A DNA stretch of 64,000 bases from Glaciimonas immobilis (lineage in GTDB: Bacteria > Pseudomonadota > Gammaproteobacteria > Burkholderiales > Burkholderiaceae_D). Made by a program: the position numbers and the translations under genes. The DNA lies in NCBI RefSeq assembly GCF_011947285.1, contig NZ_JAAOZT010000017.1:1-64000 (forward strand), written 5' to 3'. Shown here one piece after another: positions 7,616-38,272 of the stretch (within the stretch, counting starts at the first letter, position 1; each line of letters opens with the position of its first letter). The notes below the pieces were generated by a model that had not been told where the DNA came from, ran no database searches, and saw only the letters and a list, made by a program, of their open reading frames with translations.

Positions 7616-8746
7616 CTATACCAATACCTCGGACACGATCGCCTGTAACGACCAGCGCGCTTCTAACCTGGTACCGCTATTCAGACCCGATTGAATCCAA
7701 AAATTGCCAGCAGACGACTCTACCCGCTCACGCATACTTTTTAACCCCAAGCCCCATCGAGTCGCAGAGGAAAAATCGCGTGGATTGGCATCGAACCCCT
7801 GACCGTTGTCACGGATGATCAAACGCATATTGGCGTGCTCTACGTGAAGAGAGACAGTGACTTGGGATGCCTGTGCATGCTTGGCGACATTGTTTAATGC
7901 CTCCTGTATGATGCGAAAAATGTCCAATTTCAGCACTTCCGGGACTTCCGCTTCAATCACATCTAGATCAAGATTTAGGCGCATATTCTGGTATGCTTTT
8001 CTGTAAATGCGGCAATGCCATTGAATCGTCGGAATCAGCCCCAAATCGTCCAGGCTACTTGGACGCAATTCAATCGAGATACGCCTGACTTCATTCATTG
8101 CTTCCCGCAGCCGTACCACCGTCTCATCAAGAATTTTCTCGCCCTCGTCCGACTTTCCGCTTTTCACCTGTCGCGCGGCATCTTCTATCATAAACTTTAT
8201 CATTGCCAACACTTGTCCAATGCCGTCATGTAATTCAGATGAGACGCGTTTCAGCTCGAGTTCGTGCGCTGCAATTAAACGATTCGAAAATTGTTGAAGT
8301 TTGGGCGCTGATCGATCCAAGGTTTGCAGTAAAGCGTTGCGATTCGTTTTTTCTGTGAGCAGCAGCAACATAGAACGCGTGATGCCATCAGAATGTTCAA
8401 TCGACTGAGGCACGATAGTGAGTGTACTTTTGCGACCGCTACGACCTATGAAAAGGATCTCAAACGATTCGAGCTTGCCAGACTTCAGCGGAAAGGTCAG
8501 TATTTGATCAAGGCCCCCCTGACCATTTTCTACTAATTGCGCTAACAAGGTATCCTGCAATTCTTCCACCTTAAATCCCAGCATTGCCGCCGCTATCTCG
8601 TTGATGCTCAGTATCCTGCTTTGGCTATCGACGATTATCGAGGCTATCCCGATCAGCTCGGTCAACTCACCAAACTGTGACTTCGACAACTCCAGCTCGC
8701 TAGACATCCCGCGCATGGTCATCATCACTTGCTGCAGCTTTAACAT
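7616..8746 (-). CDS. Soluble NarL-type sensor histidine kinase with PAS domain
   Basis: This 376-residue kinase (start ATG 8746, Shine-Dalgarno AAGGAGA) has no transmembrane segment. After a short coiled N-terminus comes a PAS domain (about residues 25-130: IASIIVDSQSRILSINEIAAAMLGF), then a HisKA_3 dimerisation helix with the phospho-acceptor His173 in SSELHDGIGQVLA, and a HATPase with QEALNNVAKHAQA (N box), DNGQGFD (G1) and WGLGLKSMRERV (G2). The PAS domain probably senses a cytosolic redox or small-molecule signal. It is the last gene of the left operon. The NarL-type regulator that ends the right operon (37616-38272) is its likely partner. Confidence 0.9.
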   Translation of the reverse strand: MLKLQQVMMTMRGMSSELELSKSQFGELTELIGIASIIVDSQSRILSINEIAAAMLGFKVEELQDTLLAQLVENGQGGLDQILTFPLKSGKLESFEILFIGRSGRKSTLTIVPQSIEHSDGITRSMLLLLTEKTNRNALLQTLDRSAPKLQQFSNRLIAAHELELKRVSSELHDGIGQVLAMIKFMIEDAARQVKSGKSDEGEKILDETVVRLREAMNEVRRISIELRPSSLDDLGLIPTIQWHCRIYRKAYQNMRLNLDLDVIEAEVPEVLKLDIFRIIQEALNNVAKHAQASQVTVSLHVEHANMRLIIRDNGQGFDANPRDFSSATRWGLGLKSMRERVESSAGNFWIQSGLNSGTRLEARWSLQAIVSEVLV

Positions 8747-8970
8747 TATTGTCTCCTTGCGAGCCTGAGAACCCACTTCGTGAACTGTATTCATTGGGAA
8801 TAATAAGGTTTCCGAGTATCAACATACTGACGCGGTTACCTAGCTTGACTTCCATCATACATTGCGCATCATAGTAGTTACCGCCATCCTGCAAGCCCGG
8901 TCCACCCCGGCCATTTATTTCTGCGGCGGCAGCATACCGCTGTTCAGCGTTTGGCATCGCAGGCAATGCG

Positions 8971-9183
8971 TTAGTATATGTCGTTCCCTTTGGTTGCCTT
9001 GGCGGAGTAAGCAGTGGTGACATCGCTTTGGTCGTCACCGTATTTTTCGACAGGGCTTGCCCGACCGTCCTGGCCGGTGCCGGCCTCGCTTCCGCTATCT
9101 GCGCTGTATGCGCTCAGAACAAGCATGATAAGCAACACCAGGGGGAACAATGACGGTTCCACTTTGCAGTGTACAATCGCCAC
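8971..9183 (-). CDS. Small exported protein, 70 residues, unknown function
   Basis: A GTG at 9183 follows AAGGAG at 6 bases. An in-frame TTG two codons earlier overlaps the ribosome site, so GTG is preferred. The N-terminus holds one hydrophobic stretch (SLFPLVLLIMLVLSAYSA), a signal peptide or membrane anchor. The remainder is polar and acidic (DGRASPVEKYGDDQSD). I recognise no family. It sits between the lipoprotein-carrier-like gene and the kinase in the same direction, so it belongs to the operon. The 224-base gap to the kinase start has no convincing gene. Confidence 0.5.
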   Translation of the reverse strand: MAIVHCKVEPSLFPLVLLIMLVLSAYSADSGSEAGTGQDGRASPVEKYGDDQSDVTTAYSAKATKGNDIY

Positions 9184-9235
9184 AATCAATCTCCTTTTCC
9201 ATGCTCCTGCCTACGTCTAAAGCTGACACGTTAGG

Positions 9236-10198
9236 TTAAGGACCAGACGTCATAGCAGGCGCGGAAAAGAGGGCATCGCTCAATACAGGATTGAGCATAA
9301 CATGGTCAATCACTATGCGTTCAGTGGTACGGGTACCGCCGATCGCGGTGTCCAGCACGTGGGGGATCTGAAGCCCGTGCACTTTCTTGTAGCCGGAAAA
9401 ATAGGTCTCTACCGGCCAAGCTGTTCCTCCTATCATCCTGATACCGTCAATTTTGGTATCGAGAAAGGTGTCGGCATCGATCCAGAGATGGCGCACCTGA
9501 CCGTCGCGCAATGTCAATGCGAGGCGATAGTTATTGCGTCCATCCACTAATTCGATGCCATCCAGAAGCACTTTGGTCCCTTTTGCCGCGCTATCCATGA
9601 GTGGACCATCCAGATCCTGTTGCGTCGCCGCCGCGCGCGCAGTTTGTGGCGCGTATTTCAGCGCTATAGCCCCGCTAGATGTAGGCATCACCATCCACCC
9701 TTGCATCCCATCGAAGACCTGAATCGCTGTCGACCCATGGTATTGAATTTCCAGATACATCTTATGCGGCCGCTGCATATGCAAGGTGAATGGAACAGTC
9801 CGGTCGCGCGCTCCTTTACCAACGGTTAATTGAGCGCCCGAACGCGGTTTGTGGGTACCATTCATAGTGCTAAGCTGGACCTCCTCCATCCGGCCGACCT
9901 CACTTAAACCGGTGACCGCATGCCATGCGTCAATGCCCCCGCGCGCGACGCCATTGCGGGCGATGATTTGGGCGGCAGTGAGTGTCTGTACTTGCGGATT
10001 TTCGGCAGCAGATCCTTGCTGAATCGGCGCGATCGCGTGGGCTTTGAAGGCGATTGTCAGCATCGCTATCCAAATAATACGCATGGTCGGCAGCAGCAAG
10101 GTGTGTAAGACGGATAAACGGAAGATCCGGACGGCCTCGCGGTCGCGTATCCCCTTCTCGTTGGAGCATATTGCCATTAAGCGCGCTGGGTTTTTCAT
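9236..10198 (-). CDS. LolA-like exported protein (outer-membrane lipoprotein-sorting type), paralogue 1
   Basis: This 320-residue protein has a hydrophobic export segment (IIWIAMLTIAFKAHA, about residues 41-55) after an unusually long N-terminal extension. The mature part starts TLTAAQIIARNGVARGGIDAW. It then shows the pattern of LolA/outer-membrane lipoprotein-sorting proteins: beta-rich, with KMYLEIQYHGSTAIQVFDGMQGWMV, NYRLALTLRDGQVRHLWIDADTFLDTKIDG and a VETYFSGYKKVHGLQIPH segment. It resembles the next gene upstream (10304-11173) over its whole length. It may carry a lipid or lipoprotein to the outer membrane for the oxidase complex; this role is inferred. The ATG at 10198 has AGAGGAGA upstream. 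Confidence 0.75.
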   Translation of the reverse strand: MKNPARLMAICSNEKGIRDREAVRIFRLSVLHTLLLPTMRIIWIAMLTIAFKAHAIAPIQQGSAAENPQVQTLTAAQIIARNGVARGGIDAWHAVTGLSEVGRMEEVQLSTMNGTHKPRSGAQLTVGKGARDRTVPFTLHMQRPHKMYLEIQYHGSTAIQVFDGMQGWMVMPTSSGAIALKYAPQTARAAATQQDLDGPLMDSAAKGTKVLLDGIELVDGRNNYRLALTLRDGQVRHLWIDADTFLDTKIDGIRMIGGTAWPVETYFSGYKKVHGLQIPHVLDTAIGGTRTTERIVIDHVMLNPVLSDALFSAPAMTSGP

Positions 10199-11225: not shown

Positions 11226-11798
11226 TTATTCAACCATCAGGTCGTCCGCATGGAACGCTCCAACCTCAATATTTACCCGGTTACCGCGCCGCACCACTTT
11301 GCTGGCGTTTCCGAAAATAATGAAATAGTCCCGCCCAGCCACCAACGACGACACTTGTCGCAGTTCCCCGACATTTTCCATGGCGGGAACGGCTAGCATC
11401 GCCCCGCTCGGTTTGTCGGTCAAATACGGCTTGGCTTGATGGTCGAGTAGCAACCTCGCCTTTTCAGGGTCTGTAACTTGGTATTTAAATTGCAGCATCC
11501 AGTTAGAAGAAACCAGCCGCACGCCTATTACGTTAATACCCCACATCCGCTCCAGTTGCGGATTGTGGTTGATGCGCCAGGCGTGCGCGGCATCGCGCGG
11601 ATCTTCCTGGTTATCAGCATACGCGCCGCTACAAAACCCAAGGAAGGCTAGCATGATGATGGCACGGGCAACGCTACAAACGCCATTGTGCCAGCCGTCC
11701 ATTATTGGGGGCGCGACACTGACTCCACGCTCCCTACCGGTAACGCCCGACCAGCTTGAAACGTCCCTGTCCCGCGCTGTTTTTTTTTGCCGATTCAT
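11226..11798 (-). CDS. Conserved exported protein of the multicopper-oxidase cluster
   Basis: This 190-residue protein has an export signal within its first 60 residues (SVARAIIMLAFLGFCSGAYADNQ). The mature part reads INVIGVRLVSSNWMLQFKYQVTDPEKA, LAVPAMENVGELRQ and DYFIIFGNASKVVRRGNRVNIEVGAFHADDLMVE. From memory a similar small protein accompanies large extracellular multicopper oxidases in other bacteria, but I cannot name a characterised homologue. It lies 28 bases downstream of the giant gene, and the next gene starts 52 bases after its stop, so co-transcription is likely. The start at 11798 has AAGGGGA upstream. Confidence 0.6.
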   Translation of the reverse strand: MNRQKKTARDRDVSSWSGVTGRERGVSVAPPIMDGWHNGVCSVARAIIMLAFLGFCSGAYADNQEDPRDAAHAWRINHNPQLERMWGINVIGVRLVSSNWMLQFKYQVTDPEKARLLLDHQAKPYLTDKPSGAMLAVPAMENVGELRQVSSLVAGRDYFIIFGNASKVVRRGNRVNIEVGAFHADDLMVE

Positions 11799-11826: not shown

Positions 11827-14800
11827 TTATCGCGTTATGCCGCTTATAGCAACGACCTGCGTGCTACCAGCCCCACCGCCGCTATTGTCGCGCACCAATA
11901 ATGATGCGCTGACCGCTCCCCCCAACGCCAGCGGATGATAAGTCACTGTGATCCCGCAGGTAGCGCCGCTAGCCAATGTGGGGCCACAGTTACTCGCTAT
12001 AGCGAACTGCACCGGATTACTAGATGTGATACCGGCTATCGTCAGCAATGACTTCCCGCTATTCGACAGTTGTACCGTACCGGTCCCGCAGACCGCCTGT
12101 CCAGGCGCACCGCAGTTGAGCGCAGAGGGTATCGATGCTGGTGTTAATGCACTCAACAGCGCAACCGGTGGGGGCGTCCCGCTGACTGCCGCTGCCAGTG
12201 TAGTCAATGGGTTAGCGTTTGCCACCAATGCATTTGTGCTTGCGATTAGTGACGCTGTGCCCAGCAATGTATTTGCCCCGCCGACAATCCCGTTATTGAC
12301 CTGCGTCGCGCCGATGTCAAACCCCGGTAAGCGACCAGCTGCTGGCCGAGGAACACCCAGATAATCGAAGCTGGTCGCCCGGATCTGACTGCCTGGATCA
12401 GCGCCTATGCCGTTGTTATACGCGGCCCCGCCGGTGGTAATGCTGTAGTTACCGTAAGGTACTGCACCTGGTTGAAGCGGATCAGTCAGGGACAGCGGAC
12501 CATATTTCAGGTCGACAAAGTTTCCGGCCTCATCCATCGTGACACCGGCAACCATGCTGAAAGGAGGCAGGAATGGCTGACCCGGCTCGAACTTCATACC
12601 GGGATTGGCACGCGGGCCGTTACAGTAACTCTTGGTCAGCCCAGGGTCGCTCACGCTGATACCGTGACTAGGATTGCTGCCATAGATAGAACCTGCTGGC
12701 GAAAGAACCGAGTTGTACATATCCGTTACGGTAAATCTGGATGCTGCCGCCGAAACATCGCCGACCGTGCCAATATCCCAATACGCTGGCGTTCCGGTGC
12801 AGTCGCTGGCATTTACCGACGGTGGCAGCACGTTGCAGGTCCGATCATTGGTATTGTTGCTCGAGCAAACGTTGGATGCACCCGCACCACGGGTTGCGTC
12901 GACATAGAACGACCTGTTATGCCAAATGATGTCATTGAATATATCCGGGTTGGAATAAGTATTGCGCGCCTTGGTCGCCGCGACCGGCACCCCCGCCGAA
13001 GCAGTGGTCGGCAACACTGCAAGCAGCGCCGACGAAGTCATTTCAGTGCTGATACCAGCCGGGCTCGCATACGATGTGGTAGGACCACGGCCATTGATGC
13101 CGAACAAAGCGCCGACGATGGCAGCACTATCGTTGTTAGCGATAGTATTTTCATGAATCACCGCCTTCAGCGTGTCCACCAGCGAGATGCCGCCACCCGA
13201 CCAGCCCGCCACGTTATTCGTGATGATATTGTTAGTGATCGTTGCCCTGTACCATTTTTCGGGATTGGTTGGGTTGCTGATAACGTCGTTGCCGTTCACC
13301 TGTTGCAACCGAATCCCACCGCCATGACCGGACTGCGCAAAATTACCGACGATTAGGTTCGAATCAATGGTGATATTGCCGGTACCGTTGGAAAATGTGG
13401 TGTTGGTAGTCAGATCGCCTTCAATATCGATCCCGCCGCCATGCACGGTCATCGTCTGTTGGGCACTCTGATTAAACAATATTTTATTATGGGCAATCAC
13501 GCCGTTCATGTTGACGCCGATGGCACCGATGCCGCCGCCGCCGCCGTTACTATAGTTACCACAAATGAAGTTGTAATTTACCGCATAATTATCGGTACCG
13601 GTACAGATAGACACCCCTGCTCCGGTTCCTGTCGAGTTGGCACCGCCTGCACCCGGTGTCGCTTCGACAGTGCCGTTGTTGGTGATGGCGTTGTGATGGA
13701 TATTCACGCCGACGTCATAGCCATAACCATTTACAGGAGGAGTTTCTTCCTCAAATGGAGAGCCGATCCGTAAACCCCCATGCATAGAGCTCGAATTGCC
13801 ATAGATGCGGTTATTCGAAATTTCAAGTCCATGGGTCCAACCGTTGGCGTAGATGCCGCCGCCCGCATCGCTGCCAGTGATGCTTAGGCCATCTATCCGC
13901 GATTTAGCACAGAGGAAGTTCGAATCGCCCATATTCCAGCCGGTCGGCTGTATGGTGACCTTGCTAGGCACGCCCTGATTTTTCGCGATCACAGCAAAAT
14001 AATTGCTCGGTCCATTGTTTCCTGAAGTCGTACTGGCGCAATCGCTTTGCGGTAGATTTTTGGCCAGGACGGCTATTCCAGGCCCTTCTTCTGTCGCCAG
14101 TATGGTTGGTTCGAGCAGCACGACGCCACCGGTGATGGGAGTTTGGGTCGGAAGCGGATCGATTTGCGGTTTATCGCTCAGATTACCGGTCGTGACATCC
14201 ACTCCGAACAGCTTATTAATTCTCGGTCTCCAGTCTTCCAGCTTTTGCGTCGGATATTTCGCAGCATTGATCACCACCGAGGCAGCACCTACGCCTTGCA
14301 ATTGCACCGGTTTCCACATAATCAACAGTTCAGGATAGGTTCCCGCATCCACAATGATCAGATCGCCAGGCCGCGCGCTATCGATCGCGTCTTGAATCGG
14401 ATGCGGAAAGCCAGCATCCGAGGCCGTGGCTGGGCTCGGATTAAAAAAGGCGGGTTTCACCACTACGGGAACCGCACCCCCGACAGTCAGCGTGACCGAA
14501 TCCACACTAGACAATCCCGCTGCATTGGTGATCAGCAACTCACCGGTCGCCATACCGCTTGGGACCGTTGCAGTAATGTTGGCGTCGGACCATGACACAT
14601 TGGTCAGGGCCACACCATTGATACTAATCGTGCCCGCAATCGGACCGAACCCATAGTGCCGTTTGATCGTGCGCTGGTTGAATGGCGCGCTAGTCGCACT
14701 AGGTCCCTGATATGCCGGATTTGGCACATCCACGTCGCTCAGCGCGGTGATCTTCACAATATGCGTACCGTCAGCCGCAGCCACCCACGGTCCTACGTTG

Positions 14801-17800
14801 TCGCCGTCAACGCGTTTAATGGAGGGCGTGCTGTCGGGATAATTGCAATCGGCCGGATTGTAACCATCGGCAAACGCAGCCACTGGCAACACAGGCGTAT
14901 CAAGATAGACAGTTGCACCCGGCATGTAAGGGTTGGTATAGCAAAAATGGCTGAATGAGGGATTGAACAATGGGTCCGAAATCAATTGTCCCAAGGTTGA
15001 AGAACCGGGGCGCATATCGACGATTGGACCGGAATCATTCATACAAGCGATCAGCATATTCGGAGAATATCCAGCGGGGTTCGGTACGTTGACTTGCCAG
15101 GTCGATGGTGCCATACCGTTGTAGGTACCCCATTGGTCGGAATACACCCGCGAAATTTCGACGCCATGCATATCCCGGATCGACACTGGCGCATAGGCGA
15201 TGGCGAATTTCTCACCGAAATCGGGCGAGGTGGCATTTATTTCAGTCGCAGCATCATCAAGGATCAAGCCAGTGAAATGTGCAGCAACCGGTGTATTACT
15301 GTAAATGAAGAAACTTGCTTTGCCGGTCGCCTGGTCGGCAAGCTGTACTTCCTTGCGATCGCAGAGCGGTTTGACCGCCCCCGCGAACGGTGCTACTTGA
15401 CCGGAGCCGGGGAACAGGCTCATGAAATCAGGCACCGTACGCAAGGTACCAACGCAGGTTGGAAACTGGACTTTAGCACCCTGGAACCCAAGGCTGGTAG
15501 TGGCATTATTCGGGTTCTTTGGATTGTAATATGCACCCACCTGGGCTTGATCGGGCATGATGAAAATGTTGGTCAACGCACTGAACTGCTGGGCTACCGG
15601 CGCTACCCACGCGTCACCGATCAAGATGTTCTTGTCTTCTTCCTTGACAATCTCGTATCCGGCCGGAGGAATAATTTCGACCACATATCTCCCCGGCGCC
15701 AGAGGCAAGCCCGCAGCATCGGTAGTGAATGCATAGGCGCCATCGTAGACGGCAGGTTGAACCTGGTTCCATAAGTGGAAGCCGTCGTAGCACTTGAACT
15801 GGTTAGATGCGCCAAGGGTGTAGGTCAGGAACGGATCTTTGCCGTCTTGCCCTGGACACACCATATTCGGTGTTCCATCGGCCTTGGTACCGTTGGCGTA
15901 ATCGTCCCAGCTGGTGGTCTTGGTGGAGTTCACCAGCCTGAGCGCTGTCGTGCCGTCGGCATTCAGCAACTTCTTATACAAATTAACGATGACGCGGGGG
16001 ACGCCCGGCTCCCATTTAAACTGCACCTCAAGGCCCGGATCATCAAAGCCACGGGTCGAGGCATACACAACCATGCCTTGAATCCCACCGTTTTCGCCAA
16101 CATTGAAAGGACGCTTGCCCCAATCCAAAATCTGACTCTGATTGATGAAACCTTGCAAACCTTCATACAGCACGCTACTACTGTCCTTACGGTTGGTGCC
16201 GTTACTCAATCCCGGTGGAACCGCACCAAAACTCTCACCCGTAATCGGGTCATTCCAGACATAGGAAGAATTCAGAATACCGCCGGTTTTTGAACACGGC
16301 ATGGCACTATTCTGGTTGGCTGCGCCAATGGTGCCCTGTCCCGTAACCGGTTGATAGGTAACGCAATCGGGCAAGCCGCCAGCGTCAACCGTAACGTTGA
16401 CACCGGTACCGGCAAAGCGCGTACGGTCTGATTCGACCACGTACCAGTTAAATAGAGGGAAAAGCTCGTAAAACACCGCATTGCCATCGGAATCGGTCGG
16501 TAATACGTTGGAGACGGAACCATCACGGAACCGGATTGTGACGGGTACCTGCGCGATACCGGGCTCGCCGGCATCGCGCGTGCCATTGCCGTTTTGATCA
16601 ATATAGGTACTCGTCACCACCCGCGTGAACCAACTAAATACCGGGATGTTACCCAATGTCACCGCACCCGACGGTACCCGATTACCATTTTTATCCGGCG
16701 TGTTGTTGGCCAATACCTGGACGGACTTGAAGGCGATGATCTGATCCAGCCAATGATCCCAGATCACCAGCATGTAAGAGCCCACAGGAATATTGGTGAG
16801 CGTGAAATTACCGTCATCGTCACAAGCAGCGAAGCCAATATTCAGACCCAGCTCACCCTGCTGGTTGAGACCTACCATACAAGACGTAGCAGCCAGCGGT
16901 CCACGCACGCCGGAATCCCAGAGGGTTTCCTTGACCGGACGCGACATATGAAGGCTAGTAATGCGTCCTGATACCGTCGTCGTGGCAAGCGCAACCGGCC
17001 CGGTGACTGGAGGTCCTTCGTTATCGGCACCTGGTGCCGGTGGAATCCCGCTTGCAGGAACATGCGTCGCAATAATATTTTGCTGGGCGATATGGGCAGG
17101 ATTGAGAAAACCAATAAAGGTATGGAAGCCCGGAGGGCCAAACTCCTGAAAGTAGGCAGGCTCACCCGATTTGACAAAAGCATCCTGCGCCGGGGTGCCT
17201 TCCAGAGTCGATATCTGATGCCAGACTTCTCCTGCACCGCGCCGCACCGCACCGGGGTGCGCCATTACGTCAAAGCGGCCAGGCATCAGATTTTTAACCA
17301 ATGCCTGTCCTTGCAAAACGTAATCCGCGCTAGGGTTAGCAGGATCGATAGGGTCATTAGGGCATGTCAGAATTACGCCGGTCAAGTCCTTACCCGCGTA
17401 ATTAAGACTGGTAGAACTTGTGCCAGAAGTGGTGGGGCTATAAACATTGGGGCAACCGGGTGATCCCAGCAACGCATTCGTCAATGGCATGTTGAAGGCG
17501 TCGTACGTTATTTGACCGATCGCATCGCCGGAGCGACCTGCGGTATCCCAGATACGGATTTCAAATCCTCCCAGACCGTTTTCGGTCGCATCGGGATCAC
17601 CATTGGTCGGGCTGCTGTCTTCAAAAATATACACCGACAGCTGTGCTGGGCGCACAGGATTGGGCTCCACTTTAATAATGGTGGCAGGATATGCGGCTCC
17701 AGCTAACGGTGCAATCTGACCGCCACTGATCGTATGTCCACATTTAGCGTCATTGGCACCGGCAGCGCCAGGGTTTAAGCAATCCGGAGTGAGTAGAGGA

Positions 17801-20307: not shown

Positions 20308-20384
20308 TTTTATCCTCACCTGTCGCAAGGCGACTATCCATCGACAATCATCGATCTCAGTCGATCCCAATCGCTCAAAACAAC

Positions 20385-23599: not shown

Positions 23600-23728
23600 C
23601 ACGACCTCCTTCACTTCGTCGACAGAATGTGAACTTCATCAATACCGTTTGTTGTCAAACATGATGGCAGAGCTGTTTGCTCAACTTTTTGTCTGCCTTG
23701 GTCGCGGAGAGGAGGTGAGATGCGTCAT

Positions 23729-26387: not shown

Positions 26388-26485
26388 GTTGATTTCTCCA
26401 AATAGACGTACAAACATATGGTGATGCGGTGGGTTGCCCTATTCTTCAGCAAGGGCTTCCGTGCTGGCTATGAGGAGCGACTTCA

Positions 26486-27100: not shown

Positions 27101-27170
27101 TTTTTTAGCCTCACATACATGTATAGGCTATTGCGCTGCCAATTGATCTACCCATCATCCCTTTCTTTCC

Positions 27171-27189
27171 ATGGGTATAACTCCCCAAA
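27171..27189. promoter_or_regulatory. Candidate shared operator, copy 2
   Basis: The site reads ATGGGTATAACTCCCCAAA, 71 bases before the transglycosylase start, between the two divergent operons. See the matching site at 23886. If real, it would let one regulator act on both the operon head and the internal oxidase promoter. Confidence 0.45.
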
Positions 27190-27324: not shown

Positions 27325-27458
27325 AGTTGCAATAAACATAAAACAACTTAGACCCACTTTGCTCAAGCCAGTTGTCTGTTTCCGCCCAGAAAACTTCTAT
27401 AGCCGGGCGTGACGGATGGTCTTCACAGGGTGGGATCTTCGGTTCAGGGAGAAGGATA

Positions 27459-27923
27459 ATGACCCGTAACGCCACCCATGGCGCAAAGTCGCTGGCGCCT
27501 GTACATATTAGCTGGCACGCTGGATTTACTCTGCTTGAACTGCTGGTGGTGATCCTTATCATCGGCTTACTGGCGGGTATCGTTACCCCCCGCTATTTTG
27601 AGCAACTCGGCAAATCGAATACCAAAATAGCCCGTGCTCAAATCCATTCTTTTGGAAAAGCGCTCGATCAGTATCGCTTGGATGCAGGGCATTTCCCCAC
27701 CACTGAACAGGGCTTAAAATCACTGTTCACAAAACCTAACGATGAAGAAAAATGGCAAGGCCCGTATCTGGTCAAGGCCGTGCCGCCTGATCCGTGGGGC
27801 CGCGAATTTATCTATAAATCTCCGGGCGATCACGATGACTACGACATCAGTTCTTTAGGCGCCGACGGACAGATAGGCGGGACAGGTGAAAACACTGATG
27901 CGGGCTCCTGGATGCCCCAATAG
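27459..27923 (+). CDS. gspG: Major pseudopilin GspG-like
   Basis: The ATG at 27459 follows AGAAGGA and gives a 154-residue protein. The prepilin leader is 22 residues, cleavage before Phe is at HAG/FTLLELLVVILIIGLLAGIV, and Glu at +5 is present. The mature part has the GspG signature YRLDAGHFPTTEQGLKSL, GPYLVKAVPPDPWGREFIYKSPG and the calcium-loop-like end YDISSLGADGQIGGTGENTD. It forms the pseudopilus that pushes substrates through the secretin. The leader is longer than usual. No prepilin peptidase (GspO/PilD) is in the window, so the housekeeping enzyme must process it. Confidence 0.93.
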   Translation: MTRNATHGAKSLAPVHISWHAGFTLLELLVVILIIGLLAGIVTPRYFEQLGKSNTKIARAQIHSFGKALDQYRLDAGHFPTTEQGLKSLFTKPNDEEKWQGPYLVKAVPPDPWGREFIYKSPGDHDDYDISSLGADGQIGGTGENTDAGSWMPQ

Positions 27924-30905: not shown

Positions 30906-31668
30906 ACCGGCTACGCTGGTGATCGATACCGATCTAGTTACGGCGAAAATTGGCACTCTTGATAACCTCATCGTGGAAGTCCTCGGAAGCGTAACTGATA
31001 TGCCCGATAGCTTGGCACGCTACGAGCATCTCAGCGCGGCTATAAAAGATGCGTTAGCCGATCTGAAGACCAAAGTTAAACGACCATTTCGCACGATCAA
31101 TGTTGTGATTGCCGACACTCTGGTGTATTACGATGTGCTGGAAATCGATGCCCGGGTCATCTCATCACACGAATTACAGCGGCTAGCTGGTTTGAGCTTG
31201 GCCGATACCCTTGGACTGGATGCGTCTGATCTGATGCTCCGCTGCTCGATTCAAAAAGGCGGTCTGAGCGTGGTAATGTGCGGCATTCCCATCCCGATAC
31301 TTGACGCTATCAAGCATGTAATACAACAAGCCGGATATAGATTAAATAGGTTAGAACCCGCATTCGCAGAATTTTTAAATTGTCGTACCGGGCTGCTGAC
31401 CCAACCCAATGCGATGGTGGCTAAACTGCGCCATCATTCATTGACGCTAGGATTAATACGAGAAGGAAAATGGCAGGCCTTCGCGAATGAACGTTTGTCG
31501 CAGCGGGTGTGGGAGGAGTTGCGCCATAGCTGCGATGCTTTTTGCAGTCGGGTAGGAGTCCCCGATCCGCATCTGTTACCAATTTTATTCGACGCCGATA
31601 TCGAAGAAATCCCCACCGATGCAAGCGGTCGCTGGCAACCGTTACTACTCACAACGACGCTGTCGTAG
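30886..31668 (+). CDS. PilM/GspL-like cytoplasmic assembly protein
   Basis: This 260-residue protein starts with GTG 30886 (GAGGAG 5 bases upstream) inside the end of gspE. It has no transmembrane segment. It shows the pattern of the actin-like PilM/GspL cytoplasmic domain: TLVIDTDLVTAKI, INVVIADTLVYYDVLEI, LSVVMCGIPIPILDAIKHVIQQAGYRLNRLEPAFAEFLN, and a poorly conserved end. It is followed by PilN-, PilO- and PilP-like genes, the order of type IV pilus alignment complexes rather than of classical GspL/GspM. Confidence 0.7.
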   Translation: MLHLWNKPATLVIDTDLVTAKIGTLDNLIVEVLGSVTDMPDSLARYEHLSAAIKDALADLKTKVKRPFRTINVVIADTLVYYDVLEIDARVISSHELQRLAGLSLADTLGLDASDLMLRCSIQKGGLSVVMCGIPIPILDAIKHVIQQAGYRLNRLEPAFAEFLNCRTGLLTQPNAMVAKLRHHSLTLGLIREGKWQAFANERLSQRVWEELRHSCDAFCSRVGVPDPHLLPILFDADIEEIPTDASGRWQPLLLTTTLS

Positions 31669-31679
31669 GAGCCAATATT

Positions 31680-32219
31680 GTGTCCTCATTTTATCGACTT
31701 CATTTGAACTTCGGGGCTCAGCGCGCTACCCATCCTTTCGGAATAGCCTTGTTATCTGTAGGTGTTTTAGCCAGCGGATACGGGGTGCTGCAGTTTAGTT
31801 CGGCCTATATGAACCGCCAAAATCAATTGATGGAAAGCGATGCATTAACGATGCGCAAGAGCGCTTTCCAACAAAGTGAAGAGACCCATACGAAGGTTTC
31901 AGCGACCCAACTTCAGCGCTTTCGCAATGCCGCGTTAGTGGTCAATGAATTGCGAATGCCATGGGATGATTTACTCCAGATACTAGAGTCAGCGCCGATG
32001 GAACAGGTCGCTCTACTTTCGATCGAACCGATCGCCTCACGTCACCAGCTGCGGCTTTCTGCGGAAGCGCGTAACGTTTCGACGATGTTGGATTATCTGG
32101 TCTATCTGCAGCGCCAACCTTCATTGCATCAGGTAATTTTGAGCTCCCATCAGGTCCAACGTCAAATACCGGGATCGCCAGTACGCTTTCAGATACAAGC
32201 CAGTTGGAGCGAGAAATGA
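31680..32219 (+). CDS. PilN-like inner-membrane protein
   Basis: I place the start at GTG 31680, 8 bases after AGGAG, giving 179 residues. A single membrane helix (GIALLSVGVLASGYGVLQF) is followed by a coiled stretch (MESDALTMRKSAFQQSEETHTKV) and a ferredoxin-like periplasmic domain (LLQILESAPMEQVALLSIEPIA...LSAEARNVSTMLDYLVYLQRQP). This is the PilN/GspL C-terminal layout. Its stop overlaps the next ATG (ATGA). Confidence 0.7.
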   Translation: MSSFYRLHLNFGAQRATHPFGIALLSVGVLASGYGVLQFSSAYMNRQNQLMESDALTMRKSAFQQSEETHTKVSATQLQRFRNAALVVNELRMPWDDLLQILESAPMEQVALLSIEPIASRHQLRLSAEARNVSTMLDYLVYLQRQPSLHQVILSSHQVQRQIPGSPVRFQIQASWSEK

Positions 32220-32770
32220 ACATCTCATCGGCTTTGATTGCTGCCAATTATGCTTTAACCCGTCGATTGGGAATGAAGGGGCTGATCGGACTTGCCTTAA
32301 TCATTTTTACTTTACTGGTAGTGCTAGTGGTCACGCCGCGTTTCCAACAATATACACGCCAGCTCCAATTGCAAACCGCAGTACAACAGACGGCCTTGAA
32401 TCGTGACCGTAGGATCAAGAAAGTGGCACCAAAATCAATTGATCAGCTCACACAATTTAATGACTGGTTTCCCACTATCAATCAGAACGCGGGCGATTTG
32501 CGGCGTGTTTTGGAAGAAGCAAACAAAGCAAAACTTGACATTAATAAAGGAGATTATCAAATCTCGAGTGAAGCAAGTACCGAATTTATCAAGTACGAGG
32601 TTGTATTTCCGGTCAAAGCCAACTACAGCACCCTCCGCAGTTTTGTAGCGGGAGTACTCAATGCGGTACCTAATGCCTCACTTGCGGAGCTGCACATGGA
32701 ACGCCCTGCGGCAAATAACGACATGCTTGACGCCCGCATCCACTTCACACTTTTTTATCGGGGAGCATGA
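32216..32770 (+). CDS. PilO/GspM-like inner-membrane protein
   Basis: This 184-residue protein starts at the ATG that overlaps the previous stop. It has one membrane helix (GLIGLALIIFTLLVVLVVTP), a helical coiled part (RQLQLQTAVQQTALNRDRRIKK) and a ferredoxin-like C-terminal domain (TEFIKYEVVFPVKANYSTLRSFVAGVLNAVPNASLAELHMERP). It probably pairs with the PilN-like protein to form the periplasmic alignment ring. The preceding SD (GGAGCGAGAA) lies inside the upstream gene. Confidence 0.68.
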   Translation: MNISSALIAANYALTRRLGMKGLIGLALIIFTLLVVLVVTPRFQQYTRQLQLQTAVQQTALNRDRRIKKVAPKSIDQLTQFNDWFPTINQNAGDLRRVLEEANKAKLDINKGDYQISSEASTEFIKYEVVFPVKANYSTLRSFVAGVLNAVPNASLAELHMERPAANNDMLDARIHFTLFYRGA

Positions 32771-32771
32771 T

Positions 32772-33299
32772 ATGCGATTCAACATTCCCCGCCCCCGCCT
32801 AGTGGTGTTGCTGGTTATGGGCATGCTGACGGCGTATTTGGCAAACTATTTTAGCAGTGGGCCGGGTGAGGACACGATCGTGGAACCACTCAGTCGGACG
32901 CATGCCAAGGTTGCATCGTATCCGCATGCAGGATCATCATCTTTATCGACCTCATCGCTTGCGCTGCCTAAGCGTGCCGAACTGGATCAGGTCTCAAAAA
33001 ATAATTTATTCGCGGCTACCGACTGGACTCCTCCGCTGCCGCCGGCACCGGCACCACCAAAGGCTGCTCCAGCGCCACCACCGCAAGCGCCGCCAATGCC
33101 TTACAGTTTTGTAGGGATGTTGGAGGATCGCACCAAACCGACCGCCTTCCTCGCCAAGGGCGAAGCGCTTCTGATCGTCTCCGCTGGCGACACCCTTGAT
33201 GGCAACTACCACGTTGACACAGTCAGTTCCAGGGAAATCGCACTGACCTATCTGCCGTTGAATCAGAAACAAGTCATTCGAATCCAAGGAGAACTCTAG
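32772..33299 (+). CDS. PilP/GspC-like protein with proline-rich linker
   Basis: This 175-residue protein has a membrane helix near the N-terminus (LVVLLVMGMLTAYLANYF), a Ser/Thr-rich stretch and the motif KNNLFAATDW. An Ala/Pro linker (PPLPPAPAPPKAAPAPPPQAPP) leads to a C-terminal small beta domain (YSFVGMLEDRTKPTAFLAKGEALLIVSAGDTLDGNYHVDTVSSREIALTY) like the GspC homology region/PilP, which links the inner-membrane platform to the secretin. It lies directly before the secretin gene, with a one-base overlap. Confidence 0.75.
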   Translation: MRFNIPRPRLVVLLVMGMLTAYLANYFSSGPGEDTIVEPLSRTHAKVASYPHAGSSSLSTSSLALPKRAELDQVSKNNLFAATDWTPPLPPAPAPPKAAPAPPPQAPPMPYSFVGMLEDRTKPTAFLAKGEALLIVSAGDTLDGNYHVDTVSSREIALTYLPLNQKQVIRIQGEL

Positions 33300-35890
33300 T
33301 GATCCAACTCAAAACCAACAGCCTACGTATGACCCGCGCGCTATTACCGTTGCTGATCACAGCAGCACTTGCAGGATGCGCGGCGCAACAGTTTAACAAG
33401 GACGGACAACGGCAGATCCGAGAAGGCCAATATGAACAAGGACTGGCAAGCCTGCGCAAAGCAAGTCTGTTGGAGCCGGATAATTTGCGGTATCGCCTTG
33501 ATTATATGGATCGCCGGAATGAAGAGACCCAAAATTTGAACCAGCGTGGGGAGGCTTTGCGTTTAGCCGGTGATTTCGCCGGCGCGCATTATGCTTTTTT
33601 GAAGGCGCTGAATCTCGACCAAACGAATGAGCGTTCACGGCGCGGCATAGTCGATGTGGAACAGGACGTCCGCCATAACGATATTCTTGCTGATGCCGAT
33701 AAATTAGCCACTGCCGGGAAGCTCGACGCTGCGAAGGATCGCATCAAGGTAGTTCTGTTGAGCGATCCGGCGAATAAACATGCCATTGAGGCAATGCGCA
33801 GGATAGATGACCAGCTGGATGTCCAGCACCGCGCAAAAGAGGCAGTGATCGTGAGCCAGTCAATTTTAAAAAAACCGGTCACACTGCAATTTCGGGATGC
33901 CAATTTGCGGATGGTGTTTGAGGCACTCTCGCGCACTACTGGTCTAAATGTTATCTTCGACCGCGATGTCAGAGCTGACTTGAAAACCACTATATTTGTC
34001 CGCGACGGCTCTATCGAAGATACGGTCGACTTAATTTTGCTGCAAAACCAGCTTGAAAAAAGAATTCTTAACGCTAACACAATGTTTATCTATCCGGCGA
34101 TAGCGATAAAGCAAAAAGAATATCAGGAGCTGAAAGTACGTACATTTCAGATTTCCAACGGCGATGCAAAATATATTCAGGGGATGCTGAAGAGCGTGCT
34201 GAAGATCAAGGAAGTACAGGTCGACGAGCATACGAACACGCTGGTACTACGCGATACTCCAGAAGCATTGTCGGTCGCGGCGCGTGTGATTGCAGCCCAT
34301 GATCTTCCAGATGCAGAGGTAATGCTTGAAGTCGAAGTGCTTGAAATTTCGCGTGATCGACTATCCAACCTTGGCATCGTATGGCCTGACAACTTCAATG
34401 TGTCGACGCCAACCGATGCAAATGGTGGCGCGTTGACATTAGGTGCATTGAAACATCTTTCCGCTAACAGGTTACTAACGACCCCGCTCCAAGCTGGATT
34501 GAATCTCAAACTTCAGGACACCGACGCCAATCTCCTGGCGAGTCCCCGCATTCGTGTGCGCGAGCACCAAAAAGCGAAAATACTCATCGGCGATAAAGTC
34601 CCTATCATTACTAATACGGTAACGCCGGTGTCAACCGGTACGCCAGTGATCACCGGCTCCGTTCAGTACATTGATGTCGGTATAAAGCTTGAGGCTGAAC
34701 CGCATGTCTACGCTGAAGGAGACGTCGGGATCAAATTAAATCTTGAAGTCAGCAATATCGTCAAGGAAATTTCAGGTCCTGGCGGCTCGTTGGCATATCA
34801 AATTGGTACCCGGATGGTGTCTACCAGTCTACGACTGCATGATGGAGAGACCCAGATATTAGGTGGGCTGATCAGCGATTCGGATCGTAATACCGCAGCC
34901 AAAGTACCCGGGATTGGTCAGCTTCCGATACTTGGCCGCTTGTTCTCAAACAATAATGGCAACCGTACCAAAACTGAAATCGTACTGTCGATCACGCCGC
35001 GTATTTTACGGGCTAAAGGGATTGCTGAAGATACAATGGCCGACGTCTGGTCCGGGACGGAGGGTGCCATTCGCGAAAATCCGTTACGTTTAGACCCTAT
35101 TTCAAGTGTCAGCGCAAGTCCCACTAGTCCCGCAGCAAATACCGCTATCCGGATCGAACCCGTGCCGCTACCGCTCCCATTGCCCGCCAAGCCGATTGAG
35201 GCGGTCAGCACCGGTATGCCAGCGGGATCAGGAATTGTAGTTGCGGCACCCGTCCCATCGGTGCCAAAAGAACCCGCTATTTTGCCACCGACGATTATCC
35301 CGACGTCTACCCTTCCTCCGCAGAGTGCAATCGTCCAGCCCGCCCTGCCCGGCGGCACTGAGGTGGCAGCTAAAACCAGCATGGTGAACATCAATGGCGG
35401 CAACAATCCTGACACCGCTTCAACCAGCATAGGCATACCGCTCAGCGTTGCCGCTATCGTTCCGGCGGCAACTGGCGCTAGCCCAAAAATTACCTTGAGC
35501 TCGCCTGACAATGTCAAAGCCGGAGAACGTTTCAACGTGACCCTGAGCGGCGAGAATTTCGACAATATTCATGCCATTCCGCTTTCAATTCAGTACGATG
35601 CAGTGGTACTGACATTGGTTGAGGTAACGCTGGGGGAATTTAGCATTCGCTCCCACGCTGGTAGCGTTGCCCCTTCCATCAATCAGACTGCGGGCCGCGC
35701 CAGTATGCTGCTGACAGCTGATCAAGCAGCATCGTTCATGGGGTCGGGAGATTTACTTAATCTTGGATTTGTCGCGAAATTGCCCCGCAAGCGGACCCAG
35801 GTGTTGGTGGCAAAAGTCGATGTCAATGATGGGCATACCTTACTCACTATAGCGCGCCCTCAGCCACTTACATTAGCCGTCAATCCATAA
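33299..35890 (+). CDS. gspD: Secretin lipoprotein GspD-like with C-terminal cohesin domain
   Basis: The protein has 863 residues. A GTG at 33299 with AAGGAGA upstream starts a lipoprotein signal (LLITAALAGC, lipid-accepting Cys27). Next come TPR-like helices (about 30-180: EGQYEQGLASLRKASLLEPDN...), an N0/STN domain (VTLQFRDANLRMVFEALSRTTGLNVIFDRDV), an N1-like domain and the secretin barrel (VPIITNTVTPVST; STSLRLHDGETQILGGLISDSD; VPGIGQLPILGRLFS; TEIVLSITPRIL). A Pro/Ser/Ala-rich linker of about 130 residues leads to a cohesin-like domain (about 735-863: ITLSSPDNVKAGERFNVTLSGENFDNIHAIPLSIQYD...GDLLNLGFVAK). Cohesins normally bind dockerins; none is evident in this window. The lipid anchor suggests it pilots itself to the outer membrane. 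Confidence 0.92.
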   Translation: MIQLKTNSLRMTRALLPLLITAALAGCAAQQFNKDGQRQIREGQYEQGLASLRKASLLEPDNLRYRLDYMDRRNEETQNLNQRGEALRLAGDFAGAHYAFLKALNLDQTNERSRRGIVDVEQDVRHNDILADADKLATAGKLDAAKDRIKVVLLSDPANKHAIEAMRRIDDQLDVQHRAKEAVIVSQSILKKPVTLQFRDANLRMVFEALSRTTGLNVIFDRDVRADLKTTIFVRDGSIEDTVDLILLQNQLEKRILNANTMFIYPAIAIKQKEYQELKVRTFQISNGDAKYIQGMLKSVLKIKEVQVDEHTNTLVLRDTPEALSVAARVIAAHDLPDAEVMLEVEVLEISRDRLSNLGIVWPDNFNVSTPTDANGGALTLGALKHLSANRLLTTPLQAGLNLKLQDTDANLLASPRIRVREHQKAKILIGDKVPIITNTVTPVSTGTPVITGSVQYIDVGIKLEAEPHVYAEGDVGIKLNLEVSNIVKEISGPGGSLAYQIGTRMVSTSLRLHDGETQILGGLISDSDRNTAAKVPGIGQLPILGRLFSNNNGNRTKTEIVLSITPRILRAKGIAEDTMADVWSGTEGAIRENPLRLDPISSVSASPTSPAANTAIRIEPVPLPLPLPAKPIEAVSTGMPAGSGIVVAAPVPSVPKEPAILPPTIIPTSTLPPQSAIVQPALPGGTEVAAKTSMVNINGGNNPDTASTSIGIPLSVAAIVPAATGASPKITLSSPDNVKAGERFNVTLSGENFDNIHAIPLSIQYDAVVLTLVEVTLGEFSIRSHAGSVAPSINQTAGRASMLLTADQAASFMGSGDLLNLGFVAKLPRKRTQVLVAKVDVNDGHTLLTIARPQPLTLAVNP

Positions 35891-36000
35891 CAGCGGTTTG
35901 TGGAAAAAAGACTTTACCTGCGTTGACTTTATAGTAGAAGTTAAAGGGTGGGAATACTAATAAGCGATGCTCTAGGATAGATATCTTTAAGGCGCTATTG

Positions 36001-36651
36001 ATGAATACTTCAAATCACCAGCAGATAAAGCGCGCTTCGGTTTGGCGGCAGAGAGCCCAGCCGTGGAGATGGCTGGCCAGCGCAATATGTGCGCTAGATT
36101 CGGTATACGCTCTAAGCTACCTTCAGCCGCCAACGAGGCAAGCAGGCAAGGGGGCGCGTTCAATCATCTCAATTTGCAGAGTATCTGCGCGCGGGTTTAC
36201 GTTAATTGAGTTGGTCGTTACGCTCGCGTTGGTGGGGGTAGTGGCACTGGTCTCCCTACCACTATATGAAATTTCGTCCGTGCGTGTGAAGGAAACCGAA
36301 TTGAAACTTGCCCTACATCAAATTCGCGGCGCACTTGATGCCTACAAGCGAGCGTCGGACAATGGCCAGATTCTTAAAGCTGCGGGTGAATCTGGCTATC
36401 CACCAACGTTGGAAATTTTAGTAAATGGCGTGGAAAATCCTTCAGATATCAAACATGGGCGGTTAATCTTTCTGCGCAGCGTGCCGCGTGATCCATTTTT
36501 TTTAGATGCAACGCTGCCAGCCGACCAAAACTGGATGCTACGCAGTTATGGGAGTCCGCCTGAGGCCCCGCAACCAGGCGAAGATATCTTTGATGTTGCC
36601 TCTTTGTCCCCTCGCAGGGGCCTTAATGGCATTTACTATAAGGATTGGTGA
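36001..36651 (+). CDS. Pseudopilin with a very long leader
   Basis: This 216-residue protein has the prepilin site ARG/FTLIELVVTLALVGVVALVSLPLYE (Glu +5 present) after about 65 residues, far longer than normal leaders of 6-30 residues. No start codon with a ribosome site lies closer to the site, so either the leader is really long or an unusual start is used. The mature part has LKLALHQIRGALDAYKRASDNG, SGYPPTLEILVNGVEN and FLRSVPRDPFF, the GspG/H/I-like pattern of the OxpG-type pseudopilins. The 107-base gap after gspD has no clear promoter. Confidence 0.82.
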   Translation: MNTSNHQQIKRASVWRQRAQPWRWLASAICALDSVYALSYLQPPTRQAGKGARSIISICRVSARGFTLIELVVTLALVGVVALVSLPLYEISSVRVKETELKLALHQIRGALDAYKRASDNGQILKAAGESGYPPTLEILVNGVENPSDIKHGRLIFLRSVPRDPFFLDATLPADQNWMLRSYGSPPEAPQPGEDIFDVASLSPRRGLNGIYYKDW

Positions 36652-36653
36652 TC

Positions 36654-37088
36654 ATGAAACGTGCACCTTCCACCCCTGCCCGCTCCCGCAATAAGGCCTT
36701 TACCCTCATCGAGATGGTCATCGTCATGGCACTCATCGGCCTGCTGCTTACGCTCGCCGTGCCACGATATTTCATGGCACTGGAAAACGGAAAAATCAAG
36801 GTTCAGCAGCAGAACCTAGCCTCAATACGTGATGCGATCGATAAATTTTATGGTGATCAGGGCCACTATCCTGAAACGCTCGATACGTTGGTGCAAAGCC
36901 GCTACCTGCGCAGCGTCCCGATTGATCCACTGACCGAAAAGAGCAATTGGACGATTGTGGCGCCTATCGAGACAGGATCCAGTAAGGAACTGAACCCTGC
37001 GTCGGGCACAGATGCAACCGGGAATAGCGGAGCAATAACCGGAGTTTATGACGTGCATAGCGTCGCAGAGGTAAGTGATGCAAAATAA
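36654..37088 (+). CDS. GspG-like pseudopilin
   Basis: This 144-residue protein starts at ATG 36654. The short leader ends RNKA/FTLIEMVIVMALIGLLLTLAVPRY; Ala rather than the usual Gly precedes the cleavage point, and Glu +5 is present. The mature part shows IRDAIDKFYGDQGHYPETLDTLVQSRYLRSVPIDPLTEKSNW, close to the GspG fold without the calcium loop. It overlaps the next gene by 11 bases. Confidence 0.85.
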   Translation: MKRAPSTPARSRNKAFTLIEMVIVMALIGLLLTLAVPRYFMALENGKIKVQQQNLASIRDAIDKFYGDQGHYPETLDTLVQSRYLRSVPIDPLTEKSNWTIVAPIETGSSKELNPASGTDATGNSGAITGVYDVHSVAEVSDAK

Positions 37089-37611
37089 ATATCTAACCAC
37101 CGCACCCAGTCGCGGTATTGTATTACTTGCGCTGCTATTAACGCTGGCATTAATGGGAATTGCTTTGATGGGGGCTGTTAGCTGGTGGTCTCTGGAGCGC
37201 CAGCGTGAAAACGAAGAAGACCTGCTTTTTATAGGTAATCAATATAGGCTAGCGATTGAACGGTATTATTACGTAACGCCTGGCAATGGCAAGGCGTTGC
37301 CAATGCGCTTGGATGAGCTGATTGAAGATCAGCGGTTTCCCTCACCTGTGCGGCATTTACGCCGCCTCTACCTCGATCCGATGACCGGGGAGCCGTTTGA
37401 ATTAATCCATATCGGCGAGCAGATCCATGGTGTGGCGAGCAAGTCGCAGAAAAAGGCTATTAAACGAAGCGGGTTTTTTCCACCCTACACAGCGTTCGAA
37501 GGAATAGAAACATACGATCAGTGGACGTTTTTATTCACCCCGCCACGAGGCAGAAAAGCAGTATCTATCACACCGAAAGTAGCACTAAAACAAGAAAAAA
37601 TCAGGGAGTAA
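37078..37611 (+). CDS. Minor pseudopilin-like protein lacking Glu5
   Basis: This 177-residue protein starts at ATG 37078 (GAGG upstream). It has the leader MQNKYLTTAPSRG followed by IVLLALLLTLALMGIALMGAV. This fits a prepilin site, but Ala stands where Glu +5 should be. Among minor pseudopilins, GspK-type tip subunits are the ones that lack Glu5. The mature part has a helix (SLERQRENEEDLLFIGNQYRLAIERYYYVTPG) and LPMRLDELIEDQRFPSPVRHLRRLYLDPMTGEPFELI. It is probably the tip subunit, although GspK is normally larger. Confidence 0.72.
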   Translation: MQNKYLTTAPSRGIVLLALLLTLALMGIALMGAVSWWSLERQRENEEDLLFIGNQYRLAIERYYYVTPGNGKALPMRLDELIEDQRFPSPVRHLRRLYLDPMTGEPFELIHIGEQIHGVASKSQKKAIKRSGFFPPYTAFEGIETYDQWTFLFTPPRGRKAVSITPKVALKQEKIRE

Positions 37612-37615
37612 AACC

Positions 37616-38272
37616 ATGAGCCATCGCGTCTTAATCGTTGAAAACCATAATTTGTTACGAGAAGGCCTACGATCCATGATCATGCGCCTGCCCAACTATG
37701 AGGTTGTTGGTACCGCGCGGGACGGCAAGGAGGCAATACAGAACGCTGTTCTATTGCAACCCGATCTGATTTTAATGGATCTGTCCATGCCTGGCATCAA
37801 TGGGATTGAAGCGACTGCACAAATAAAACGACGCATGCCTAATATCCGTATCCTTGCGCTAACAGGGTATAAAACCGACGAATATGTACGCGAGGCGTTA
37901 CGAGCGGGGGCGGATGGCTACGCACTCAAAGATTCTTCGTATGAAGAATTTATCAGTGCGATGGATGCCGTTATTACTGGAAAAAAATTCATCTGCCCAG
38001 ACTTGTCTGTGCAGATGATAGATATTATCTTACGCGGCGACGCAGAGCCAGCAGCCAATGCCCCGTGGAGTACGCTGACCTCCCGTGAACGCAGCATTAT
38101 CAAGTTAATCGCGGAAGGTCGTACGAATCGCTTGGCGGCTGAGTTTCTTAATATCAGCTCTAAAACGGTTGAAAAGCATCGGGCTAATTTGATGCACAAA
38201 CTTGGGCTGAAGAATGCAACAGAACTTATACTGTTTGCTCTGAATATGGGATTAATTGAAAATAAAAATTAA
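37616..38272 (+). CDS. NarL/FixJ-type response regulator
   Basis: This 218-residue protein has a receiver domain with phospho-acceptor Asp55 (LILMDLSMPGINGIEA), LALTGYK and a Lys in YALKD, followed by a LuxR/NarL helix-turn-helix (LTSRERSIIKLIAEGRTNRLAAEFLNISSKTVEKHRANLMHKL). The acidic pair near residues 9-10 reads Glu-Asn instead of Asp/Glu-Asp, so one magnesium ligand is missing and phosphorylation may be weak. It follows the pseudopilins by 4 bases, as the last gene of the secretion operon. Its probable kinase is encoded at the far end of the divergent operon (7616-8746). Confidence 0.9.
   Translation: MSHRVLIVENHNLLREGLRSMIMRLPNYEVVGTARDGKEAIQNAVLLQPDLILMDLSMPGINGIEATAQIKRRMPNIRILALTGYKTDEYVREALRAGADGYALKDSSYEEFISAMDAVITGKKFICPDLSVQMIDIILRGDAEPAANAPWSTLTSRERSIIKLIAEGRTNRLAAEFLNISSKTVEKHRANLMHKLGLKNATELILFALNMGLIENKN

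Follow-up and report, generated by a model that had tools for sequence, protein, structure and literature searches.

A putatively mobile gene block in Glaciimonas immobilis with copper ligands divided between two oxidase genes beside a secretion operon and a probable two-component pair

Two divergent gene groups in a 30-kb block

We analysed a 64,000-nucleotide stretch of the genome of Glaciimonas immobilis (contig NZ_JAAOZT010000017.1, positions 1 to 64,000; hereafter the window) in which two divergent gene groups lie between positions 7616 and 38272. The minus-strand group carries the genes of two predicted two-cupredoxin proteins, here called McoA and McoB, followed by the gene of a giant protein (the three together are referred to as the mcoA trio), and ends in a sensor histidine kinase; the plus-strand group encodes a machine resembling a type II secretion system (T2SS) and ends in a response regulator. 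Both start from a divergent promoter region predicted from the sequence at 27101 to ~27458, and their gene order and domains are as given in an earlier note on this DNA, which had described two divergent operons sharing the region at 27.1-27.46 kb.

When the window was compared by blastn with a 40-kb stretch from another genome of the genus (G002), positions 7599-38289 aligned in a single piece (30,738 bp, 91.5%), from which we take the extent of the whole module. The G002 sequences outside this alignment, 6.0 kb on one flank and 3.3 kb on the other, have no match anywhere in the window; the block is neighboured there by a PEP-CTERM-like gene (recognised by eye) on one side and by a porin and an IS21 IstB gene on the other. 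The module was present in two of the five genomes of the genus that were searched, with mcoA absent from the other three. The self-contained module of about 30 kb that the earlier note had proposed is thus borne out by the single alignment and the unrelated flanks, and we hold its status as a module and the linkage of its genes with high confidence. On these comparisons the block is accessory and has moved.

One set of copper ligands is divided between McoA and McoB

McoA (22037-23614, minus strand) carries a type-1 set consisting of H187, C233, H240 and M245 and, in domain 1, the trinuclear ligands H190, H192, H232 and H234, the single residues being those that we presume from knowledge of the family to bind each type of copper. 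McoB (20385-22028, minus strand) has the domain-2 trinuclear ligands only (H348, H350, H513 and H515), with a serine at position 514. The giant (11827-20370, minus strand; 2847 aa) has a cupredoxin-like N-terminus without copper motifs and an SdrD_B domain, together with weak immunoglobulin (Ig) and NosD-like (beta-helix) matches and a weak Ig-like match at the C-terminus. Its N-terminus is related to McoB (BLAST with the G002 copy, 27%, E 1e-13), and a PDB sequence search with the whole giant gave no match. In genome G122 the giant is represented by two genes, the cupredoxin part behind mcoB and the scaffold part upstream of mcoA.

A profile of McoA detected 449 relatives in named genomes, of which the best 80 were kept as loci; the record titles of these best 80 place them in Burkholderiales, Gallionella/Sideroxydans-type metagenome-assembled genomes (MAGs), Acidobacteriota and a few MAGs labelled as Myxococcales or Deltaproteobacteria. 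Gene order is nearly constant, with mcoB behind mcoA in 77 of the 78 loci with room for it and the giant behind mcoB in 73 of 73, and even in the sole locus counted without mcoB (L041) the gene is present in an overlapping frame. In none of the 80 loci were mcoA and mcoB flagged as a single fused frame; a single mcoB-giant frame was flagged in L028, L042 and L078 and rejected, a separate giant frame lying behind mcoB in each. Two Acidobacteria assemblies hold several copies, three of mcoA in VANK01 (L046, L056, L076) and four in QIAU01 (L048, L049, L051, L095), each followed by mcoB.

Across 85 aligned rows H187, H190, H192, H232, C233, H234, H240, M243 and M245 of McoA are invariant, and H345, H348, H350, H353, H513 and H515 of McoB are kept in 81-84 rows, these counts leaving out the McoA of G122 (its row was too short, though it carries the McoA ligands) and the McoB of L078. 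The giant N-terminal region (74 rows) has isolated conserved histidines but no HxH, HxxHxH or HCH motif. Among the 84 loci judged for both proteins the McoA set is full in every one and the McoB set in 80, the four misses (L037, L066, L092, L102) being loci where mcoB is cut off or missing from the sequence, and all 80 complete pairs are complementary. Position 514 of McoB is serine in all 80; multicopper oxidases (MCOs) with a type-1 site at domain 2 carry a cysteine there between the two histidines.

Residue alignment to 3g5w and 2zwn, which we take to be two-domain MCOs (2dMCOs) of type C, puts the HTVHFHG and HCH motifs of McoA on domain 1 and the HPLHIHG and HSH motifs of McoB on domain 2, and McoA domain 2 and McoB domain 1 align to the same stretches of these structures without the histidines; the domain-2 pieces of the alignments are weak matches by themselves. 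Single-chain models of McoA (Z 19.6, rmsd 2.9 and 241 residues aligned against 3g5w_A) and McoB (Z 25.4, rmsd 2.8 and 272 residues aligned against 2zwn_B) follow these structures over most of their length, as two cupredoxin domains per chain, and the nearest folds overall are 2dMCOs/laccases and Cu nitrite reductases.

2dMCOs are trimers whose trinuclear site is formed where domain 1 of a protomer faces domain 2 of its neighbour, and in type C the type-1 copper is held in domain 1 (PMC13151041). The module agrees with its nearest type-C relatives, 3g5w and 2zwn, in fold, in ligand motifs, in the type-1 ligands of domain 1, which are found in McoA (84 of 84) and are lacking in McoB and the giant, and in a trinuclear site that would be expected between protomers. 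It differs in that known type-C proteins have both trinuclear half-sets in each chain, whereas here McoA has the domain-1 half only, McoB the domain-2 half only, and a third relative is free of ligands. As McoA is without the domain-2 ligands, McoB without those of domain 1 and the type-1 cysteine, and the giant without both, one full set is split over McoA and McoB, and because the trinuclear site of 2dMCOs joins domains 1 and 2 of neighbouring protomers, the halves retained are those that could meet. Our sequence comparisons therefore establish McoA, McoB and the giant N-terminus as three diverged cupredoxin relatives in fixed order, with one predicted type-1 and one predicted trinuclear ligand set shared between the first two. 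That the two proteins would meet in a heteromeric active site we put at even chances or slightly better.

A secretion operon linked to the oxidase genes

The plus-strand group opens with the major pseudopilin GspG (27372-27923, PF08334; an ATG start near 27459 is likely), followed by the platform protein GspF (27968-29188, PF00482) and the ATPase GspE (29205-30905, PF00437). Four genes at 30886-33299 (30886-31668, 31542-32219, 32204-32770 and 32661-33299) stand in the positions of PilM, PilN, PilO and PilP; their Pfam matches are unclear, also with respect to canonical GspC, GspL and GspM, the second having a weak match to PilN (E 0.037). The next gene is a GspD/PilQ-type secretin (33299-35890) with TPR and a C-terminal cohesin domain (Pfam) and a lipobox seen by eye, its NCBIfam match lying under the cut-off and its placement resting also on the tree described below. 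Although the secretin ends in a cohesin domain, none of the module proteins gave a dockerin match. Three pseudopilin-type genes at 35998-37611 complete the operon, the first two (35998-36651 and 36645-37088) with an N_methyl motif and the third (37075-37611) by position. The core of a T2SS is thus present by Pfam as secretin, ATPase, platform protein and GspG pseudopilin.

In a set of 148 genomes, the window's own included, the secretin profile matched 59, and the four top scores (1169, 1133, 937 and 868 bits, the next being 796) belong to the four genomes with the mcoA trio, which are also the only four with mofC. Two genomes with a short distant mcoA match only (G024 and G088; 37%, ~106 residues) were counted as negative. 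The profile was also run on 42 other oxidase-positive genomes, taken from a list of 46 oxidase loci of which L024, L060 and L084 were left aside, and the secretins of 30 of these were placed in a quick tree of 62 rows (61 different), made up of 46 oxidase-positive rows and of 16 oxidase-negative ones from the best-scoring of 55 such genomes. The 16 negative secretins form one side of a branch with an SH-aLRT support of 100 and the 46 positive rows stand on the other. Oxidase-negative operons of Burkholderiales have the same order, G-F-E-N-O-P-D-pseudopilins, but their secretins sit on the negative side of that branch and regulator and oxidase-cluster genes are absent beside the 19 that were viewed.

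Secretion genes lie within the 10-kb flank of the oxidase genes in 13 of the 80 loci, not counting weak matches in L088 and L098 (63-96 bits). In a further 29 loci (the 30 tree-placed secretins minus L089) the secretin was 13-30 kb from the oxidase genes on one contig in 17, sameness of contig being judged by equal length, and in two of the 12 cases on different contigs (L074 and L091) the secretin adjoins another copy of the trio. Seen from the secretion operon, 32 of 41 positives have oxidase-cluster genes no more than 7 kb away, versus none of 19 negatives. The complete gene set is present in Cupriavidus metallidurans CH34, a strain amenable to laboratory work. The earlier note had named as grounds for abandoning the module that such genes never co-occur elsewhere; instead, many genera have them together and in linkage, and from these genome comparisons we are highly confident of a genetic linkage of the secretion operon and its regulator with the oxidase genes. 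Of the secreted oxidase with its own secretion machine that the note envisaged, the oxidase beside the machine is what the loci display, and the oxidases would probably be exported by it.

A probable two-component pair accompanies the block

The response regulator at 37616-38272 (plus strand; PF00072, PF00196) has a LuxR-type DNA-binding domain and the kinase at 7616-8794 (minus strand) has HisKA_3, HATPase_c and weak PAS matches in Pfam, a NarL-type combination of HisKA_3 kinase and receiver-LuxR regulator; the two are probably partners. Where positive loci are sequenced on both sides, the regulator adjoins the secretion operon, on the operon's strand, in 24 of 26 (the exceptions being L173 and L194), versus none of 17 controls.

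The position of the kinase varies. It accompanies the oxidase genes in the window, G002, G084, L079 and L081, next to mcoA in the last three, and adjoins the regulator in L103, L104, L171, L184 and L189. In G084 and the two Collimonas loci (L079 and L081) the regulator closes the secretion operon and the kinase stays with the oxidase, and in the draft assemblies of G084 and L079 kinase and regulator lie on separate contigs, each accompanying one half. The arrangement at opposite ends, kinase left and regulator right, that the note had pointed out is therefore real but not universal. In L163 (G084) the response regulator, at ~10.7-11.4 kb, occupies two frames, which may reflect a frameshift or a sequencing error.

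Within the divergent region a pair of inverted heptamers (TACCCAT/ATGGGTA, 27149-27177), a pattern chosen after it had been seen, is a candidate site for the regulator. It has one match in the window and is also found in G002. As a site common to relatives it was rejected, being absent from all other fetched loci; with the pair confined to the window genome and G002 it remains a lead, and an operator is one possible role.

Accessory genes and comparison with known clusters

Upstream of mcoA, all on the minus strand, are genes for an SLT lytic transglycosylase (26486-27100, PF01464), a SCO1/SenC copper chaperone (25773-26417, PF02630) and a protein at 24085-25761 with one CXXCH haem site, a long second part and a cytochrome match (PF13442) under the cut-off. 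As MofC-like proteins are described as a cytochrome c domain joined to a periplasmic binding domain (PMC5566968), these features led us to call this protein MofC-like, an identity by published description. Behind the giant are a small protein with no assigned family (11226-11798, minus strand), which has no Pfam match and follows the giant in other loci by profile matches, and two LolA-like paralogues on the same strand, of which that at 10304-11233 matches PF17131 at E 1.6e-4, under the curated cut-off, and that at 9236-10198 only at E 0.099, with ~37% identity to the G002 copy of its neighbour. A subtilase-like protein with repeated cadherin-like domains (by eye) is encoded inside the oxidase cluster of G122 (L021, 8620-11244).

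The closest published counterpart is in Sideroxydans lithotrophicus ES-1, where three tandem extracellular MCO genes stand with mofC-like and SCO genes (He et al. 2017, PMC5566968). The proteins of this cluster, Slit_1812-1818, were more abundant on magnetite and predicted to be extracellular, with similar clusters noted in Paraburkholderia, Ralstonia, Anaeromyxobacter and Steroidobacteraceae (Keffer et al. 2025, PMC12016527). Compared by description, the module likewise has three cupredoxin proteins, two of MCO type and one much larger, SCO1/SenC, a cytochrome and small proteins, and in a Sideroxydans MAG (L036) the same trio shares a contig with mofC, sco and LolA. Unlike the module, the ES-1 cluster is presented, in the parts of the two accounts available, without a secretion operon, a two-component pair or split ligands, its smaller proteins being called canonical MCOs (PMC12016527; PMC5566968), and the word 'secretion' is absent from the main text of PMC12016527. 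Neither a secretion system with this oxidase nor a heteromeric 2dMCO was found in titles or abstract starts among the open-access matches listed. Since the ES-1 papers, in those parts, cover the cluster only, we regard the oxidase cluster as known and the exporter linkage, the regulator linkage and the split ligands as new, as far as the literature searches reach. The note's impression that split oxidase and giant scaffold were both new accordingly stands for the divided ligands, whereas the cluster of oxidase, scaffold, cytochrome and chaperone had already been published.

The note had further likened the content to the Geobacter OmpB/OxpG pair and Leptothrix MofA. A MofC-like cytochrome near an MCO is indeed a feature of Leptothrix MofABC and of the Rubrivivax mof operon, where the cytochrome and a metallochaperone are near an exported MCO (PMC8218464), and a SCO neighbour is also present here. 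SCO and MofC-like genes likewise lie near ompB, whose cluster, as described, also lacks the mofB peptidyl-prolyl isomerase (PMC5566968); among the module proteins no Pfam match to such an isomerase was seen at E 0.01. The module departs from Geobacter OmpB and its atypical T2SS (OxpG) in having secretion and oxidase genes linked in one block. MofA, again by description, is a single chain with four copper motifs (PMC8218464), a likeness that fails for the module with its motifs split over two genes.

Proposed function and competing explanations

Taken together, these features probably describe a module that spreads horizontally and provides an extracellular, heteromeric copper oxidase along with a T2SS-like exporter of its own, the whole under kinase/regulator control. 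By analogy with trimeric 2dMCOs, McoA domain 1 and McoB domain 2 would build the trinuclear site at a heteromeric interface, and the giant would occupy the third position, perhaps of a pseudo-trimer, and anchor the complex at the surface. From family knowledge of SCO proteins, T2SSs and 2dMCOs we propose an order of copper loading, export and surface anchoring, in which SCO would load copper in the periplasm, the T2SS-like machine would export the folded parts and the MofC-like protein would link the oxidase to periplasmic electron flow, with the kinase/regulator pair controlling both halves of the module. As substrate we consider a reductant in solid form or bound to a surface to be likely, Fe(II) minerals being an example; Mn(II) or phenolics/humics may also serve. 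As to origin, there is about as much for as against a history in which a homotrimeric two-domain ancestor was tripled and its copies lost ligands in complementary fashion, two of them becoming McoA and McoB and the third, left without ligands, being joined to a giant surface protein. Each heterotrimer would then have a single active site, with dedicated T2SS-like export and with two-component genes that in some lineages go one with each half.

The wider question is how bacteria get copper oxidases out of the cell and onto minerals, and for this oxidase family only a proteomic correlation was found in print. The module names a likely exporter and predicts that neither McoA nor McoB works alone. 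We know of no MCO in which a trinuclear copper site is shared by two different gene products.

Several observations weigh against the proposal. Confidence in the single-chain models is moderate (mean pLDDT 73.6 and 78.0), with loops at or beside the ligands at ~50 or lower, and Foldseek TM-scores by query length are ~0.30-0.40 in the rows listed. Of the 42 oxidase-positive genomes six have no secretin at the threshold and another six, with acidobacterial loci, have only low-scoring ones that were left out of the tree, where acidobacterial secretins are distant; under midpoint rooting the positive secretins do not form one clade, the negatives falling between them. Each locus was represented by its best-matching secretin, the score gap was noticed before being used, and with close relatives among them the positive loci do not count as independent. 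Many of the hosts live in soil and are, to our knowledge, not known as iron oxidisers. Moreover, in 55 of the 148 genomes a secretin match occurs in the absence of the mcoA trio, so that related machines must have other cargo, and operons of the same order are present in control loci. This would fit a secretion operon that is a mere neighbour, exporting other proteins and travelling with the oxidase genes by chance, which we consider quite improbable given that the linkage is rearranged but kept in many genera and given the secretin tree and the regulator at the operon end.

Alternatively, the complex may be an electron relay in which McoA is a blue-copper (type-1) carrier, the partial trinuclear ligands are structural and the MofC-like cytochrome, rather than O2, receives the electrons drawn from a mineral. 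In agreement with this, the window, G002, G084, G122 and several named loci have a MofC-like cytochrome close to the trio or to the secretion operon that goes with it, and the ES-1 cluster shows greater abundance with solid Fe(II) (PMC12016527), but the eight trinuclear histidines are conserved in Pseudomonadota and Acidobacteriota though they lie in two genes, which is more than a pure carrier would need, and we find a relay unlikely. A laccase-like soil oxidase of phenols or humics, with the same assembly and export and competing on substrate only, is possible and deserves to be taken seriously without being our expectation; the named hosts include by record title many soil- and plant-associated Burkholderiales and Acidobacteriota and the nearest folds include laccases and Cu nitrite reductases beside 2dMCOs, whereas the only functional hint found in print is the magnetite-linked abundance (PMC12016527). 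An ordinary single-chain metal oxidase of the MofA/OmpB kind shares the MofC-like and SCO neighbours (PMC5566968) and is scarcely credible here, as the three ES-1 MCOs were judged not homologous to earlier suggested metal oxidoreductases (PMC5566968), and we rejected this identity on the splitting of the copper motifs over two genes.

Borders of the block and neighbouring sequences

The module has sharp borders and is flanked on both sides by broken mobile elements. On the left is a broken IS110-family element (6510-7598, minus strand; Pfam and insertion sequence (IS) comparison), whose intact 342-aa transposase was found in G004, and on the right a fragment of an IS6/IS240-type transposase (38315-38534, plus strand; similarity to IS copies). 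The note had spoken of broken mobile or defence genes at both borders; the mobile part held, and a Pfam scan of the border frames (PADLOC was not run) revealed mobile-element fragments only and no defence genes.

Positions 2372-2520 of the window correspond to the transposase part that in G002 copies adjoins the fragment at 38315-38534, so that two parts of one transposase lie in the same orientation ~36 kb apart, which hints at how far an insertion or rearrangement may reach. The frame at 1283-2617 joins an antisense IS6-type transposase (similarity at 2363-2528) to the end of a pyridine-nucleotide oxidoreductase, a gene that therefore looks broken in the window. Outside the module, 4611-5870 encodes an EgtB-like protein with FGE-sulfatase and DinB_2 domains, adjoining a glycosyltransferase-like frame.

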